64,000 bases of DNA from Lachnospiraceae bacterium (lineage in GTDB: Bacteria > Bacillota > Clostridia > Lachnospirales > Lachnospiraceae): positions 62,001 through 126,000 of the forward strand of contig JAUNGG010000003.1 in assembly GCA_030524635.1 (NCBI GenBank), given 5' to 3'. Of this stretch, positions 844-36,689 are shown piece after piece (within the stretch, counting starts at the first letter, position 1; every line of letters starts with the position of its first letter). The notes beneath the pieces were generated by a model. That model worked only from the letters and a program-made list of their open reading frames with translations. It did not search any database and was not told the DNA's origin. The position numbers and the translations under genes are program-made.

Positions 844-3714
844 ATGAATCAGGTTCATTTTATTTTAAATGGAACACAGCATACGGCGGAGTTTGAGGAT
901 GGGGAAACGTTGCTGAAATATTTAAGGAATACAGTTTGCCTGAAAGGGACGAAGGAGAGCTGCGGGATTGGACAGTGCGGTGCCTGCAGTGTGCTGATCG
1001 ATGGAAAGCTGCGGCGTTCCTGCGTGACCTTGATGAAAACGCTGGAGGGAAAGCAGGTAGAAACGATAGAGGGGATCGGGATCAATGGGGCGCTTACTGT
1101 GATTCAGCGTTCCTTTTTGGATATGGGAGCGGTGCAGTGCGGTTATTGCATTCCTGGAATGGTGATTGCGGCCAAAGCTCTCCTTCTGGAGCATCCGGAG
1201 CCTACGGATGAGGAGATCAAGGAGGGATTAAAGCATAATTACTGCCGCTGTACTGGATATGTGAAGATTATTGAGGCGGTGAAGCTGGCAGCAGCCCGGA
1301 TGAAGGCTGGGGAAGGAAAGCAGGCCGGGGAAGGGAAGCTGGCTGGAGAGCAGAAGCAGACCGGGAAGCAGGCGAGGGAGAAAAAGCAGATGGAGAGGGA
1401 GGATCTTCTGGAACAGGAGGAGATCGACCGGTTCCGTTCCGGCGAGCATACCACCATCACGGCGGGAAGCGGGGAGAAGGTTCCCAAGCTTCGGGGCAAT
1501 GCTCTGGGAAAATCCATTTGGGATGTGGATGGCCCGGCGAAGGTGACCGGATCTTTGAAGTTCTGTGATGATTTTGAAGCAGATGAATTTGGCGAAACAG
1601 AAATGCTCCACGGTGCCTTTGTCTGGGCGCCGGCGCCGAAGGCAAGGATCCTTAAGCTGGATCTGACTGCGGCAAAGCAGGCGCCGGGAGTGCGGCGCAT
1701 TATCACCTGGAAGGATGTGCCGGGAGATGGATTGGTTGGAACCTGGACGCCGGAACAGCCGGTATTTTGTAAGGATCAGGTGAATTTCCTGGGGGATGTG
1801 CTGGCTCTTGTGGTGGCGGACACGGAAAAGCAGGCCAGAGCGGCGGCTTTGCTTGCCCGGATCGAATATGAGGAACTGGAGGGCGTCTACACCATCCCGG
1901 AGGGCTATGCCAGGAAAAGCTTTCTTCTGCATACCGGGCGGAATGCAGGCAATGTGGAACGGGCAAAGGAGAAGCCGGATGTGGTCAAGGTAAAGGTGTC
2001 CAAGGAGATGGAGCGGCAGGAGCATGCCTGTATGGAAACGGAATCGGCCATTGGTTATGGGCACGGGGATGCAGTGACTGTGTATTCCTGCACCCAGTCG
2101 CCATTTGAGATCCGGCGGATGCTGGTGCCCATCTTAAATCTTCCGGAGGAGAAGATCCGAATTGTGGCCACTCCTTTAGGAGGCGGGTTTGGCAGTAAAT
2201 GTGATTCGGTCCTTGAGGCCCAGGCGGCGGTGGCCGGGCTGGTGATGCAGAAGCCGGTAAAGGTAACATTGACCAGAGCGGAGTCCCTGATCGCCTCCTC
2301 CAAACGGCATGGCTACCACACCGACTATGAGATCGGTTTTACCAGAAATGGGAAGTTTGAATATCTGGACTGCCGGATGTTTTCTGACGGGGGCCCATAC
2401 ATGACAGAAAGCTACGGAACGCTGATGACAGGGTGTTTGATGGCAGGCGGGCCTTATACAGTGGAAAATATCCGGATCGAAGGCAGCGCGATCCGCACCA
2501 ACAATGTGCTGGGCGGTGCATTCCGGGGATACGGCATTAATCAGGCGGCGGTCTCCATCGAGACAGCGGTGGATATGATGGCAGAAAAGCTTCATATGGA
2601 TCCTTTTGAGATCCGGAGGAAAAATGCAGTCCGGGCAGGCAGCTATTCTGTGGGCGGCGAGTTGTTAACAGACAGCGTAGGCCTTCTGGATACCATTGAC
2701 CAGTGTGAGGCGAAGCTGAAGGAGGCGCTGAAGGAGTATGAGGGCATGTATCCGAAAGGCAGCAAGGTGTTGGGATATGGAGTGGCCAGCGGCTTTAAGA
2801 ATGTTGGGGTAGGAAAAGGCATTTTTACCGATGATGGTGCCTGCAAGCTGACATTGCAGGGAGATGGGCGGATCCAGATGATCTGTTCCGGAACAGATAT
2901 GGGACAGGGCTTTCGGACTGCCATGGTGCAGATCGCGGCGGAGGCCCTGAACCGGGATGTGGCGGATTTCGACATTTTGATCGGTGATACGCAGATTACT
3001 GTTCCAACCGGCCAGTCGGTCAGCGAGCGTCAGACCCTGTGCGGCGGACGGGCGGTCTACGAAGCCTGCCAAAATCTGAAGCAGGAGCTGGAACAAAATC
3101 CCTGGAAGCCGGGAGAGATCCGAAAGGCTCAGTATTACTATCTTTCTCCGCCTACCTTCGCCATTGGAGACTACGAAGGGGCCAGGGCGAAGGGCGTTCC
3201 CTACCGGAATTTTCCGGCTTATGCCTATACCACTCAGGCGGTTATCGTTGAGGTGGATAAGGAAACGGGAGAGACGAAGCTTTTGAAGGTGATCGCAGCC
3301 CATGATGTGGGAAGGGTGATCAATCCTCTGAAGATAGAGGGACAGCTTCAGGGTTCCTGTTCTATGGGACAGGGATATGCTCTTACAGAACAATATCCCT
3401 GCAGGGATGGCTACCCGATGGTGAAGCAATACCGGGAGCTGGGGCTTCCAAAAGCAGAGGATACGCCAGATTATGAGATGATCCTGATTGAAAATCCGGA
3501 GCCAACTGGTCCTTTTGGGGCCAAGGGGATCTCGGAGGTGGCCACGGTTCCCATCACTCCGGCTATTTTAAATGCAATCTACAATGCAATTGGGGTTCGA
3601 ATCAACCGGATACCGGCTACGCCGAAGATCATACGGGATGCGATCCGAACAGGAAGCTGCCAGGTGCCGGCGATGGATGAAATGATCGATAAAATGGAGC
3701 AGTCAGCCCAGTGA
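844..3714 (+). CDS. Molybdenum hydroxylase of the xanthine dehydrogenase family, fused 2Fe-2S and molybdopterin domains
   Basis: A 956-residue cytosolic enzyme. A plant-type 2Fe-2S domain has Cys40, 45, 48 and 60 in ESCGIGQCGACSV. A helical 2Fe-2S domain has Cys99/102 in QCGYCIPGM and Cys134/136 in CRCTGY. A Lys/Gly/Glu-rich linker (about 153-200) of imperfect repeats follows, then the hammerhead and molybdopterin-binding domains with GGGFGSKCD, GGAFRGYG and GTDMGQGF. The catalytic Glu is probably E898 in GAKGISE. There is no FAD domain, and no FAD-subunit gene lies nearby. This layout fits Mop-type aldehyde oxidoreductases and the selenium-dependent xanthine dehydrogenase family. The substrate (xanthine, another purine or an aldehyde) is not settled. 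The gene stands alone between a terminator on each side. Confidence 0.85.
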   Translation: MNQVHFILNGTQHTAEFEDGETLLKYLRNTVCLKGTKESCGIGQCGACSVLIDGKLRRSCVTLMKTLEGKQVETIEGIGINGALTVIQRSFLDMGAVQCGYCIPGMVIAAKALLLEHPEPTDEEIKEGLKHNYCRCTGYVKIIEAVKLAAARMKAGEGKQAGEGKLAGEQKQTGKQAREKKQMEREDLLEQEEIDRFRSGEHTTITAGSGEKVPKLRGNALGKSIWDVDGPAKVTGSLKFCDDFEADEFGETEMLHGAFVWAPAPKARILKLDLTAAKQAPGVRRIITWKDVPGDGLVGTWTPEQPVFCKDQVNFLGDVLALVVADTEKQARAAALLARIEYEELEGVYTIPEGYARKSFLLHTGRNAGNVERAKEKPDVVKVKVSKEMERQEHACMETESAIGYGHGDAVTVYSCTQSPFEIRRMLVPILNLPEEKIRIVATPLGGGFGSKCDSVLEAQAAVAGLVMQKPVKVTLTRAESLIASSKRHGYHTDYEIGFTRNGKFEYLDCRMFSDGGPYMTESYGTLMTGCLMAGGPYTVENIRIEGSAIRTNNVLGGAFRGYGINQAAVSIETAVDMMAEKLHMDPFEIRRKNAVRAGSYSVGGELLTDSVGLLDTIDQCEAKLKEALKEYEGMYPKGSKVLGYGVASGFKNVGVGKGIFTDDGACKLTLQGDGRIQMICSGTDMGQGFRTAMVQIAAEALNRDVADFDILIGDTQITVPTGQSVSERQTLCGGRAVYEACQNLKQELEQNPWKPGEIRKAQYYYLSPPTFAIGDYEGARAKGVPYRNFPAYAYTTQAVIVEVDKETGETKLLKVIAAHDVGRVINPLKIEGQLQGSCSMGQGYALTEQYPCRDGYPMVKQYRELGLPKAEDTPDYEMILIENPEPTGPFGAKGISEVATVPITPAILNAIYNAIGVRINRIPATPKIIRDAIRTGSCQVPAMDEMIDKMEQSAQ

Positions 3715-27053: not shown

Positions 27054-27749
27054 ATGTTTCATCTGGTAACCGGAGGCAGCGGAAGCGGAAAATCAGAATA
27101 TGCAGAGGGGCTGATTATGGAATCGGGAGCCGCAAGGCGGTTCTATCTCGCCACCATGGAGGTTTACGGAGCTGAGGGGAGGCGGAAGGTGGAGCGGCAC
27201 CGGAGGCTGCGCGCCGGCAAGGGCTTTGAGACCATCGAGTGTCCCAGAGGGCTGGCAAAGATCGGTCTGGATAAAGGGAACGATTTTGGCCAGGATCTGG
27301 ACCAGGAGTGCAAACGGGATTCTGCTCCGGCGGCAGACAAAAGCAGAACGGAATGTGCCGTGCTGCTGGAATGCATGTCCAATCTGGCTGCCAATGAGCT
27401 ATTTGGCGCGGGGGAGGAAGCACAACCGGGACCACAACCAGGTGTGCTGCCCCTTTCCTCTGCGCTGCAGCGGATAAAAAAGGGGATCCTGCATGTACAG
27501 TCCCAGTGTGAGCTTCTGGTGGTGGTGACCAATGAAGTCTTTTCAGACGGCATGGATTATGGGCCGGAAACCAACGAATACATCCGGCTTCTGGGCCAGA
27601 TCAACTGCTGGATGGCCCAGCAGGCAGACAAGGTGACGGAGGTGGTATACGGTATTCCGGTTGCAGTAAAGAACGGTGATGCCGTTTCTGCCCCTCTGTC
27701 CGCGGAAAGCCGTCTGGAGGACCGGATGAAGGAGGAGGGAAGAGTATGA
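27054..27749 (+). CDS. cobU: Adenosylcobinamide kinase / adenosylcobinamide-phosphate guanylyltransferase
   Basis: A 231-residue bifunctional enzyme that phosphorylates adenosylcobinamide and then attaches GMP. The P-loop is GGSGSGKS (residues 7-14). The guanylylated His is probably H49 in VERHRRLR. LLECMSNLAANELF and LLVVVTNEVFSDGMDYGPET match the later family motifs. An insertion of about 40 residues (about 72-112), rich in charged residues and Asp/Ser, makes it longer than the usual 180-190. It starts one base after the Hsp70 stop and overlaps the rpiR-type gene in ATGA. Confidence 0.9.
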   Translation: MFHLVTGGSGSGKSEYAEGLIMESGAARRFYLATMEVYGAEGRRKVERHRRLRAGKGFETIECPRGLAKIGLDKGNDFGQDLDQECKRDSAPAADKSRTECAVLLECMSNLAANELFGAGEEAQPGPQPGVLPLSSALQRIKKGILHVQSQCELLVVVTNEVFSDGMDYGPETNEYIRLLGQINCWMAQQADKVTEVVYGIPVAVKNGDAVSAPLSAESRLEDRMKEEGRV

Positions 27750-28653: not shown

Positions 28654-29490
28654 CTAAGCCTGCTTATCTTTCGAAAAATGCAGGCAGTTTTTCGGGCAGG
28701 ACTGGATGCATTTTCCACAGCGGATACATTCCGGTGAACAGGATATTTCAGTCACGGAAAGTGCCAGGGGACACGCCTTTTCACAGGCGGCGCAGGAAAT
28801 GCAGCGTTCCTTCTCCCAATGGATCTGCACAAGGCTGAAGCGGTTAAACCAGCCGTAAACAGCCCCTAAGGGACATAAGTACTGGCAGAAGGGTCGGAAG
28901 ATCTTTACCGAGAGAAGTAAGATCAAAAGGAGCAGGCCAAGCTTCCAGAAAAACAGGGCTCCAAGCTGGCTGCGAAGCAGTTGATTGGTACTGATCAGCG
29001 GCAGTGCACCCAGCAGGGTGCCGGAGGGACATAAATATTTGCAGAAAGCAGGCACCTTTGCAAAGCCGCCGAATAAAAACAGGGAGCCGATGCATACCAG
29101 CAGAAGGAGGACCATGTATTTCCCGTACTTCAGAATCTCATGGAAGGGCAAGCGCTTTCTTTTTTTCAAAACAGGAATCCGGTACAGCAGATCCTGCACC
29201 AGCCCAAAGGGGCACAGCCATCCGCAGACAAACCGCCCCAAAAGGCTGCCGAACAGAAAGAGGAATCCCAGTACGCCAAAAGGGATCCTGACGGTCTGCT
29301 GGTTTAATAAGGCCTGAAGCGCTCCAATGGGGCAGGAGGCAATGGCGCCGGGACAGGAATAGCAATTTAATCCTGGAAGGCAGGCATATTTCAGCTTGCC
29401 CTGATAGATTTTTCCGTGTAAAAAACCATATGTATATCCATTTGTGAGAATCGTAAACAATATTTGTACGGTCAGACGTATTCGTTTCAT
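28654..29490 (-). CDS. NapH/YccM-like 4Fe-4S membrane protein
   Basis: A 278-residue polytopic protein with about five membrane helices. It has paired CxxxC motifs in loops: CYSCPGAIASCPIG, FVCGWLCPFGLVQD, KYLCPSGTL and QYLCPLGAVYGW. Two ferredoxin clusters are at the C-terminus (CISCAACEKACPLA and CIRCGKCIQSCPKNC). This is the architecture of membrane quinol-side electron carriers such as NapH and CcoG. The ATG at 29490 is 4 bases beyond the stop of the CXXC mini-gene, so translation is probably coupled. A TTG start at 29508 is less likely. With the upstream TlpA lipoprotein, it probably moves electrons across the membrane to an extracellular thiol partner. That is inference. Confidence 0.85.
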   Translation of the reverse strand: MKRIRLTVQILFTILTNGYTYGFLHGKIYQGKLKYACLPGLNCYSCPGAIASCPIGALQALLNQQTVRIPFGVLGFLFLFGSLLGRFVCGWLCPFGLVQDLLYRIPVLKKRKRLPFHEILKYGKYMVLLLLVCIGSLFLFGGFAKVPAFCKYLCPSGTLLGALPLISTNQLLRSQLGALFFWKLGLLLLILLLSVKIFRPFCQYLCPLGAVYGWFNRFSLVQIHWEKERCISCAACEKACPLALSVTEISCSPECIRCGKCIQSCPKNCLHFSKDKQA

Positions 29491-29494
29491 CTTT

Positions 29495-29647
29495 TCACCC
29501 GATTCCAATGCATTCCAGGCAGATCATCACTGCCTTTTTCCAGATCACAGTAAGCTGACCCTGGGAAGCGCCGATGCCAAGGAACAAGAGTCCGGCGATC
29601 GTTCCCCACAGCCATGAGTATTGGTTACGGTTCTTCCAAAAGCTCAT
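29495..29647 (-). CDS. 50-residue CXXC membrane mini-protein (CD1871A-like)
   Basis: Reading the reverse strand from ATG at 29647 gives 50 residues. There is a basic start (MSFWKNRNQYSW), one hydrophobic helix (LWGTIAGLLFLGIGASQG), and then AVMICLECIGIG at the end. This matches the small CD1871A-type CXXC-motif proteins of Clostridia. The start lies inside the last codons of the tlpA-like gene in another frame, and the stop is 4 bases before the 4Fe-4S gene. The gene therefore bridges the two tightly. It is short enough to be missed by automatic calling. Its function is unknown; a redox or structural subunit is likely. Confidence 0.8.
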   Translation of the reverse strand: MSFWKNRNQYSWLWGTIAGLLFLGIGASQGQLTVIWKKAVMICLECIGIG

Positions 29648-30239
29648 TGATTCGTTCCTCCCATGCCGATTTCTCCATAGAACCTACCACAGTGTCTACG
29701 ATTTTTCCGCTGTTATTGATAAAAAAGGTAGTTGGCACAGCCGTTACGTCAGTAAGAAGTGCATCGTACAGCGATTGATTTAAAAGCAGATGAGGATAGT
29801 CCGCGCCGGTCCGTTCCACTAAATCTGCTGCCAGCGCTGCTGCATCCGGATCTCCGTTTTCCTGCACATCACTGATGATTCCAATCAGCTGGAATTCTTC
29901 CGGATCGTATTCACCGGCCAGCTGGCCAAGGTCCGGCATCTCGCTTAAGCATGGGTTGCAGTAGGTCGCCCATACATTGACCATCGTAAGCTTTGATTCT
30001 GAAAAAACAGCAGATGAAACGGTATTTCCATTCAGATCCTGTGCTTCAAAAATAAGCAGCGATGAAAGCTCCTTTGCCTTTGGAGATGCTGCAGGCTGTG
30101 CTGCCTGAGGGGAATTGCTCTCTGTTTTCTGGGCAGAGCTGTCCGCTGCTTTCAGGCTGCTGCCTGGAGCGGCACATCCGCTTAACAAAACAGCGGACAG
30201 AAGGAATGGCAGCAGACGTACGTGATTGCGTTTCTTCAT
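29625..30239 (-). CDS. TlpA-like thioredoxin-fold lipoprotein
   Basis: A 204-residue lipoprotein. The lipobox is LLSGC (Cys22), a Ser/Ala/Gln-rich tether follows to about residue 57, and then a TlpA/ResA thioredoxin fold. The active site is WATYCNPCLSEMP (Cys94 and Cys97), and the cis-Pro loop is VTAVPTTFFINN. It would act outside the membrane as a thiol-disulfide reductant. It is the first gene of a three-gene reverse-strand operon with the CXXC mini-protein and the 4Fe-4S membrane protein, which could supply its electrons. Confidence 0.9.
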   Translation of the reverse strand: MKKRNHVRLLPFLLSAVLLSGCAAPGSSLKAADSSAQKTESNSPQAAQPAASPKAKELSSLLIFEAQDLNGNTVSSAVFSESKLTMVNVWATYCNPCLSEMPDLGQLAGEYDPEEFQLIGIISDVQENGDPDAAALAADLVERTGADYPHLLLNQSLYDALLTDVTAVPTTFFINNSGKIVDTVVGSMEKSAWEERINELLEEP

Positions 30240-30410
30240 GTATGATCCTCCATATTTTTCAAAATAAAATCGTTGGTTTCCTGGTTATCATAAGAACAGA
30301 ACGTTCTTGATATCCAATATAAAGAGAAAGCCATATCATGTCAAGTGAGAAATAACCGGAAATTGGAAGAAGGAATTACGATTCGCAGCCCACATTCCGG
30401 GAAGCTGGAC

Positions 30411-34917: not shown

Positions 34918-35892
34918 ATGTTTCGACTGAGCGCATTGACTGCCGGTGTCTTATTAGACTGGATTTTTGGTGAGCCTTCTGTCCTGGTTCACCCGGTTAT
35001 TCTGATCGGGAAGCTGATCTCTCGTACTGAGAGCTGGCTTCGCAGGCTGCGTCCCGGCAGGGAGAAGAGCAGCGGATATCTGTTGGTATTGATAGTAATC
35101 TTTTGTTCCATGGCGGTTCCTGGATTGATTCTGCTGGCGGTTTCCCGGCTGGAGAAGGGACAGGGCTCCATTACCTGGTGTCTGACTGCATTTTGGAGCT
35201 TTCAGCTTCTGGCAGCGAAAAGTCTGTATCAGGAGAGCGGAAAGGTGAGAAAGGCACTGGAGGTGTCTGACCGGGAGCAGGCCAGGCGATGTGTGTCCAT
35301 GATCGTAGGACGGGATACGGAGCGTCTGGATGAGGCTGGCATTACCAGAGCGGCGGTAGAAACGGTGGCGGAGAATACGTCGGACGGTGTGATTGCACCG
35401 CTGCTTTTTATGGCATTGTTTGGAATCCTGGGCGGATTCTTTTATAAAGCGGTGAATACCATGGATTCCATGGTGGGCTATAAAAATGAGAAGTACCTGC
35501 TTTTCGGCCGGGCAGCCGCCAGGCTGGATGATCTGTGCAATTTTCTTCCGGCCAGGATCACAGGATGCCTGCTTACGGCAGCCGCCTGGATCTTAGGGAT
35601 GCTGGATCCGGCCTATGACGGGAAAAATGCCTGGTGCATTTACCGGAGGGACCGGAGGAATCATGCAAGTCCTAATTCGGCCCATGGGGAAGCGGCCTGT
35701 GCAGGAGCGCTGCATGTCCGCCTGGCAGGGGATGCCTGGTATTTCGGACAGCTTCACAAGAAGCCTTATATCGGTGATGATGACCGGCCCATAGAGGCAG
35801 AGGATATCCGAAGGGCTGGCAGGCTGATGGCAGCGGCAGAGCTTCTTGGGCTTTTGCTTTGCTGGATTATTTGTTTGGAGATCACAGTATGA
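34918..35892 (+). CDS. cbiB: Adenosylcobinamide-phosphate synthase
   Basis: A 324-residue polytopic membrane protein that joins adenosylcobyric acid to aminopropanol phosphate. LDWIFGEPSVLVHPVILIGK at the N-terminus, AVETVAENTSDGVIAPLLF and KAVNTMDSMVGYKNEKYLLF are CbiB signatures. ATG follows AACAGGAGGGGCG. It overlaps cobS in ATGA and starts the third B12 gene group in the window (cbiB-cobS-cobU-like). Confidence 0.95.
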   Translation: MFRLSALTAGVLLDWIFGEPSVLVHPVILIGKLISRTESWLRRLRPGREKSSGYLLVLIVIFCSMAVPGLILLAVSRLEKGQGSITWCLTAFWSFQLLAAKSLYQESGKVRKALEVSDREQARRCVSMIVGRDTERLDEAGITRAAVETVAENTSDGVIAPLLFMALFGILGGFFYKAVNTMDSMVGYKNEKYLLFGRAAARLDDLCNFLPARITGCLLTAAAWILGMLDPAYDGKNAWCIYRRDRRNHASPNSAHGEAACAGALHVRLAGDAWYFGQLHKKPYIGDDDRPIEAEDIRRAGRLMAAAELLGLLLCWIICLEITV

Positions 35893-36689
35893 ATGTACTA
35901 TATGGATTATTAATTGCAGTGTCCATGTATTCCAAGGTACCGGTGCCGCTGGTAGAGTGGACGAAGCCCAGGATGCGGTATGCCATGTGCTGGTTTCCGG
36001 TGGTGGGGCTGGTGTGCGGCGGTCTGCTGTGGCTGTGGTTTTGTGTTTCTGGAAGCTTTGGCTTCCATCCCGTGGCAGCCGGACTGCTGGGAGTCTGCAT
36101 TCCAGTTCTGGTGACGGGAGGCATCCATCTGGATGGCTTTCTGGACACGTTGGACGCAAGAAGTTCTTATGGTGATAAGGAGAAAAAGCTGGAGATCTTA
36201 AAGGATCCCCATACCGGTGCATTTGCCATCATCGGAGCCTGTGTTTATTTTATGCTTTATGCAGCCTGCCTGGTCCAGCTTTTTATGGATGGAAGGCAGA
36301 TGGGGCAGGAGCGGATGGTAGCAGCATTCTGCCTGGTGTTTTCCCTGGAGCGGGCGTTCAGCGGCTTTTCTGTTGCCAGCTTCCGGTGTGCGAAGAACAG
36401 CGGGCTGGTTCACACCTTTTCCGATGGGGCCCACAAGCAGGTGACCAGGATCGTGCTGCTTCTCTGGATGGCTGTACTGTTTGTGCTGCTTGTTCTTACA
36501 GGATGGCTGCCGGCAGCGGCGGTGTTTGGTACAGGCGGTGCGGTATTCTGGTATTACTGGCATATGTCAAAGAAAGAATTTGGCGGGATCACCGGCGATC
36601 TGGCCGGGTGGTTTCTGCAGGTATTTGAATTGACGGCTTTGGCGGCTTTGATGGTATGTGCCAGATGGATGGCAGGTCAGGCCGGCTGA
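35889..36689 (+). CDS. cobS: Adenosylcobinamide-GDP ribazoletransferase (cobalamin synthase)
   Basis: A 266-residue membrane protein that joins adenosylcobinamide-GDP and alpha-ribazole, the last assembly step. YSKVPVPLVEWTKPRMRYAM, FPVVGLVCGGLLW and GGIHLDGFLDTLDARSSYGD (an acidic metal-binding segment) are CobS signatures, and ILKDPHTGAFAIIG follows. The ATG at 35889 overlaps the cbiB stop. An upstream in-frame start at 35859 lies inside cbiB and is less likely. Confidence 0.95.
   Translation: MNVLYGLLIAVSMYSKVPVPLVEWTKPRMRYAMCWFPVVGLVCGGLLWLWFCVSGSFGFHPVAAGLLGVCIPVLVTGGIHLDGFLDTLDARSSYGDKEKKLEILKDPHTGAFAIIGACVYFMLYAACLVQLFMDGRQMGQERMVAAFCLVFSLERAFSGFSVASFRCAKNSGLVHTFSDGAHKQVTRIVLLLWMAVLFVLLVLTGWLPAAAVFGTGGAVFWYYWHMSKKEFGGITGDLAGWFLQVFELTALAALMVCARWMAGQAG

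Follow-up and report, generated by a model that had tools for sequence, protein, structure and literature searches.

A three-gene locus of Clostridia as a candidate NapH-like electron wire to an external thiol protein

Trans-membrane systems of the NapH-like kind have been described with flavinylated outputs, and their use is said to extend to reductases as well as oxidases (PMC8238504). CcdA-eTrx systems are found in anaerobes, for example, the msrAB-ccdA-eTrx system of Fusobacterium (PMC12288474), and TlpA-like families containing selenocysteine (Sec) are also known (PMC13188914). For the locus described here, a thiol output is proposed.

The window, i.e., the whole stretch of DNA that was analyzed, covers 64,000 nucleotides from a Lachnospiraceae bacterium and holds three genes in succession on the minus strand, coding for a TlpA-like lipoprotein, a 50-residue protein of the CD1871A family, and a polytopic NapH-like 4Fe-4S protein (Table 1). 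A sequence-only reading had described them as chained by an overlap and a 4-base gap, with the small gene beginning inside the end of tlpA in a different frame, and the sequence confirms both points. The ATG of the small gene (at 29647) lies 23 nt inside the end of tlpA in the other frame, giving a 23-nt overlap, and 4 nt (29491-29494) separate its stop codon from the NapH-like ATG. A start offset of 22 nt into tlpA is seen again in 40 loci. For the NapH-like gene, an alternative open TTG start at 29508 would give a protein of 284 aa. Cobalamin genes (CobU, CbiB/CobD, and CobS, at window positions 27054-27749, 34918-35892, and 35859-36689) are found on both sides of the region; between them lie PTS, GH1 (beta-glucoside type), and RpiR-type regulator genes, as well as the triad.

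Table 1. Features of the triad in the window, and one variant locus from another genome.
Feature	Position	Strand	Remarks
tlpA-like gene	29625..30239	-	TlpA-like thiol-disulfide lipoprotein, 204 aa, lipobox LLSGC; Pfam AhpC-TSA (PF00578) 46.3 bits, Redoxin (PF08534) 39.8 bits
TlpA active site, C94-N-P-C97	29949-29960	-	sequence, alignment
CD1871A-family gene	29495..29647	-	50 aa; NCBIfam NF040920 48.8 bits, cut-off 32
CD1871A C43-L-E-C46, then terminal IGIG	29510-29521 (CLEC)	-	CXXC kept 141/141
Shine-Dalgarno GGGAGG of the 50-aa gene	29657..29662	-	9 nt 5' of ATG
NapH-like polytopic 4Fe-4S gene	28654..29490	-	278 aa from ATG; Pfam Fer4_5 75 bits, Fer4 28.7 bits
Promoter-like TTGACA-17-TATATT, 5' of tlpA	30316..30344	-	11/12 matches, consensus scan only; 3 sites in region vs 2.6 expected
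First predicted external loop, C37/C43/C46/C53	29332..29382	-	all four invariant, 139 relatives
Second predicted external CX3CP, C150-KYL-C154-P	29026..29043	-	C150 139/139, C154 138/139 relatives
Cytosolic CX3CP, C89/C93	29209..29226	-	25/25 clade members and 20/20 paralogues
Partner cytosolic CX3CP, C202/C206	28870-28887	-	
C-terminal 2[4Fe-4S] ferredoxin-type domain, eight cysteines C230-C265	28696..28803	-	Pfam Fer4
L186:33-3393, NapH-like + FMN_bind, Oxidored_molyb, and ApbE genes	G214:C1:2232500-2237000		

The assignment of the small protein to CD1871A relies on an NF040920 match spanning positions 5-38 of 38. Whole-genome and GTDB searches yielded 141 CD1871A loci, many of them from related species, so that counts over these loci are not independent. 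Relative to most of the homologues compared, changes in the 50-aa gene fall mostly at third codon positions; this bias, together with the NF040920 score and the 141 conserved loci, rules out a chance ORF or an artefact. The gene had been called missed, which holds at most for this assembly, as the family is named and annotated by RefSeq/PGAP in other genomes. In Peptoclostridium acidaminophilum, for instance, RefSeq annotates CD1871A next to a 4Fe-4S protein, and TlpA follows at a distance of one gene. Plasmid carriage was rejected, the single match being to a large replicon of this species. Judging from its number, the founding gene CD1871A would lie within the conjugative transposon CTn5 of C. 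difficile 630, which comprises CD1845-CD1878a (PMC3158075). No paper naming CD1871A or the triad was found in a literature search that was thin on subscription journals, in agreement with the earlier remark that CD1871A-type proteins lack a known function. CD1871A is thus a named but uncharacterized family, for which the constant partners and the proposed role are new here.

The 50-aa protein begins with a positively charged stretch, followed by a single membrane helix and a further predicted helix that bears CLEC. In the C-terminal half of CD1871A, both cysteines, one lysine, and two glycines are invariant in 141/141 proteins, and the conservation of the CXXC motif, on which the sequence-only reading had been staked beforehand, thereby holds throughout. 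The chain ends at a fixed place, with CLECIGIG in 103 of the 141 proteins and close variants in the others. Net charge is higher before the membrane helix than after it in 122/141, and the positive N-terminus predicts that the CXXC faces outside.

The co-occurrence of the three genes, put forward with the original observation, was borne out across genomes. The NapH-like type adjoins CD1871A in 141/141 loci, and TlpA shares the locus in 131/140, with three different gene orders, one locus cut by a contig end being excluded from the denominator. In 112 of these loci TlpA was seen at once, in 4 it contains an in-frame TGA, and in 15 it is displaced, lying either downstream of NapH or some 4 kb upstream, on the far side of an ABC transporter; 9 of the 140 loci have no TlpA nearby. 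A first tally of 29 TlpA-less loci among the 141 was rejected, since it included 4 predicted selenoproteins cut at the TGA and 15 loci with TlpA downstream or farther upstream. At the genome level, the NapH-type profile splits 199 genomes of the phylum into 31 scoring over 220 bits and a remainder under 112 bits. CD1871A is present in 31/31 genomes of the first group and neither gene is found in the other 168 (0/168), corresponding to a Fisher p of about 5e-37 over the 199 genomes with kinship ignored. Three genomes that had seemed to hold the NapH type without CD1871A turned out to carry divergent CD1871A proteins in these loci, with CLSCIGxx or CFSCIGLE. Overall, the three genes appear to occur almost always together in Clostridia.

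No further neighbor of the triad is conserved. The next commonest gene, found in 15/80 loci (L086:7052-8356 and 14 others like it), resembles an FAD-dependent oxidoreductase and lies directly 3' of the NapH-like gene. In another locus (L185; G214:C1:2791500-2797500), an ORF at 2373-3704 separates the CD1871A and NapH-like genes, and its sequence, judged by eye, resembles that of a group II intron reverse transcriptase. No CD1871A-NapH fusion protein was noticed.

The lipoprotein belongs to the TlpA/ResA/DsbE type, as both Pfam scores exceed their cut-offs and the lipobox and CNPC site are present. It is neither ResA, DsbE, nor StoA proper, given NCBIfam scores of 56.4, 50.1, and 43.4 bits for cut-offs of 170, 123, and 210, respectively. 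In eight loci (L035, L043, L044, L048, L053, L054, L055, and L061), an in-frame TGA occupies the place of the first active-site cysteine of TlpA, and the frame stays open past it in all eight. These TlpA partners are predicted to be UxxC selenoproteins, in which Sec replaces the first active-site cysteine. SelB scores over its cut-off in 8/8 of the genomes concerned, but not in the window genome.

These neighborhoods bear on the possibility that CD1871A serves the NapH-like protein as a subunit for assembly or stability, acting, for example, in Fe-S or metal insertion outside the cell, and that TlpA keeps its cysteines reduced instead of accepting electrons. Thioredoxin-like proteins maintain reduced cofactor-site cysteines in other assembly systems, and the link between CD1871A and NapH is tighter than that of either with TlpA, as the 9/140 loci devoid of a nearby TlpA indicate. 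Nevertheless, no other conserved electron acceptor adjoins the pair, which would leave the complex without an output, and the predicted Sec-TlpA suggests catalysis. This explanation is, therefore, considered the least probable of all, and very unlikely in itself.

The 4Fe-4S protein belongs to the Fer4_5 family (PF12801), which it matches in two stretches well above the gathering cut-off of 22 bits. Its scores for the NapH/MauN models fall short (82.8 bits for TIGR02163, cut-off 213; 68 bits for NF007013, cut-off 234), which makes it, by profile comparison, a relative that is neither NapH nor MauN. Sequence matches in the PDB cover the C-terminal ferredoxin-type domain only, and no PDB relative of the membrane part was found by sequence, Foldseek, or VIA-align (the latter covering mainly residues 175-365). 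The twelve cytosolic cysteines, belonging to the two CX3CP motifs and the ferredoxin-type domain, are kept by 20/20 paralogues examined. The clade linked to CD1871A differs by additional cysteines: positions 37, 43, 46, 150, and 154 hold cysteine in 25/25 clade members vs. 0/20 paralogues, C53 being less clade-specific (cysteine in 7/20 paralogues). As the positively charged loop 95-124 is placed inside, the six extra cysteines are predicted to lie outside, in two external loops.

The number of these cysteines raises the question of whether the CXXC of CD1871A is itself part of a cluster. The six of NapH and the two of CD1871A add up to eight external cysteines, a number that would suffice for two 4Fe-4S clusters. 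On the cytosolic side, two CX3CP motifs are believed to form a cluster together, and the external CX3CP stands alone. The CXXC could, thus, provide two ligands of an external Fe-S cluster shared with C150/C154, CD1871A being structural and the cluster itself feeding TlpA; two invariant cysteines suit ligands as well as a dithiol. Two groups of variant loci argue against the CXXC as an obligatory ligand. The first consists of loci in two genomes (L186 in G214 and L187 in G333), where an additional NapH has the full set of six external cysteines; its neighbors are ApbE, a lipoprotein with FMN_bind, and a molybdopterin-domain protein, with CD1871A absent nearby. External cysteines can, thus, exist without an adjacent CD1871A. 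These NapH proteins fall inside the CD1871A-linked clade, with an exact position that is weakly supported (node supports <=0.95), and the arrangement looks like an exchange of output module, possibly giving a flavin-output version. In the second group (L180-L183 and L192), CD1871A has CLSCIGIQ, and the external CX3CP is replaced by FSKLCFVG, with the loss of one external cysteine and no adjacent TlpA, so that CLSC is retained although a supposed co-ligand is gone. Moreover, dithiol relays usually have a CXXC beside a thioredoxin-fold partner. The shared-cluster explanation is, therefore, doubtful, while being the least improbable of the alternatives to a redox dithiol that would take electrons from the NapH-like protein.

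The contact between the two membrane proteins was modeled with AlphaFold2 on a relative (L082), in which CD1871A and NapH can be joined in frame by natural stop read-through, through a linker of about 24 residues. The joint fold has a pLDDT of 79.9 and a pTM of 0.78, and it shows the CD1871A membrane helix followed by a second helix ending in CLEC. The small protein had been described as a one-helix protein ending in CLECIGIG; the ending stands, and in the model the CLEC, eight residues from the end, is borne by a second helix after the membrane helix. The pLDDT of the CD1871A membrane helix rises from 81/76 alone to 95/95 with NapH, a weak hint of docking. That of the tail drops in the joint fold (68 with NapH vs. 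81), which may stem from the artificial linker.

Thioredoxin-like proteins outside the cytoplasm can draw their electrons from CcdA/DsbD. With DsbD_TM (PF02683), no CcdA was detected in the window genome (94% complete; E<=10), which contains one strong TlpA of the triad kind, and none of the three triad proteins matches this model. More broadly, CcdA is rarer in the genomes that have the pair, with 12/31 compared with 126/168 of those without it (p = 2e-4, uncorrected for phylogeny). This fits a triad that would replace CcdA. The opposite direction has also to be considered, in which TlpA would oxidize surface thiols and electrons would move inward, first to CD1871A, then to the Fe-S protein, and finally to an acceptor in the cytosol. 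TlpA/ResA-type proteins act as reductants, and ferredoxin-type clusters are of low potential. Furthermore, Sec predicted at the attacking position and a genome without detected CcdA suit a need for reductant. An inward flow thus has only a slim chance of being correct, even though sequence does not reveal direction and the double use of NapH-like systems, with reductases and with oxidases (PMC8238504), would accommodate it.

The extra external cysteines, the CXXC predicted outside, the predicted Sec-TlpA, and the absence of detected CcdA all point the same way as an electron flow to an external thiol protein. The suggestion, drawn initially from gene layout, of electron transfer through the membrane to an external thiol-disulfide protein is, in this sense, supported, the evidence being comparative throughout. 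We consider it somewhat probable that the triad forms one extracytoplasmic thiol-reducing module, in which Fe-S centers would pass ferredoxin-type electrons to the dithiol of CD1871A, which would hand them on to TlpA. The nine TlpA-less loci, the CLSCIGIQ subgroup, and the CcdA found in 12/31 genomes are counted against this best explanation, as are the lower confidence of the CD1871A tail in the joint fold and the negative structure searches with the membrane part.

According to this mechanism, the electrons would be of low potential, with ferredoxin or flavodoxin as their probable source. Their entry point would be the cytosolic 2[4Fe-4S] domain of the NapH-like protein, from where clusters in its CX3CP motifs would lead them across the membrane to at least one outer-face cluster carried by the six clade-specific cysteines. 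The membrane helix of CD1871A would anchor it beside the NapH-like protein, so that the cysteine pair of its C-terminal CLECIGIG could convert cluster electrons into a dithiol. This dithiol would reduce the lipoprotein TlpA, in its Cys or Sec form, which would in turn reduce disulfides or other oxidized targets at the cell surface. The module would, thus, be a trans-membrane analogue of ferredoxin:thioredoxin reductase (FTR), able to stand in for CcdA/DsbD. A more specific and more general version is, in our judgment, evenly balanced between right and wrong: the CD1871A tail would be an Fe-S-to-dithiol converter, taking single electrons from the external cluster and passing them in pairs to TlpA, in a ferredoxin-driven alternative to CcdA/DsbD that would be widespread in Clostridia and have exchangeable dithiol and flavin outputs.

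Compared with known systems, the triad may be best described as a NapH-like electron wire whose output would be a thiol. With the flavinylated NapH-like systems it shares the Fer4_5 membrane protein family and putative Fe-S centers across the membrane, but its output would consist of a CXXC mini-protein and TlpA, with six extra external cysteines. FMN_bind (PF04205) is absent from the triad and from the eight neighboring proteins scanned, which sets it apart from the flavinylated systems proper. Like CcdA/DsbD with TlpA or eTrx, the triad is proposed to feed electrons to an extracytoplasmic thioredoxin-like protein; unlike its ferredoxin-type Fe-S carrier, CcdA uses membrane dithiol exchange from cytosolic thioredoxin. 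The proposed logic, with an Fe-S center beside a dithiol turning ferredoxin electrons into thiol electrons, is that of FTR, although FTR is soluble and unrelated in sequence, and no FTR model is among the Pfam or NCBIfam matches listed (25 of 28 for the Fe-S protein). DUF4266, found with DsbD, DUF3570, and ApbE (PMC8238504), differs by a CXC rather than a CXXC, by its other partners, and by the absence of an Fe-S membrane protein. The closest likeness of the 50-aa protein is with the NF040920 family, with the same CXXC and C-terminus. Strict anaerobes need reduced external thiols, and some of them, including the window genome, have a TlpA-type protein with CcdA/DsbD undetected. If the proposal is true, the module tells where the electrons of TlpA originate in such anaerobes and ties ferredoxin metabolism to surface thiol chemistry. 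The CD1871A family would gain a first concrete, testable role, and NapH-like electron transfer would widen from flavin to thiol outputs.
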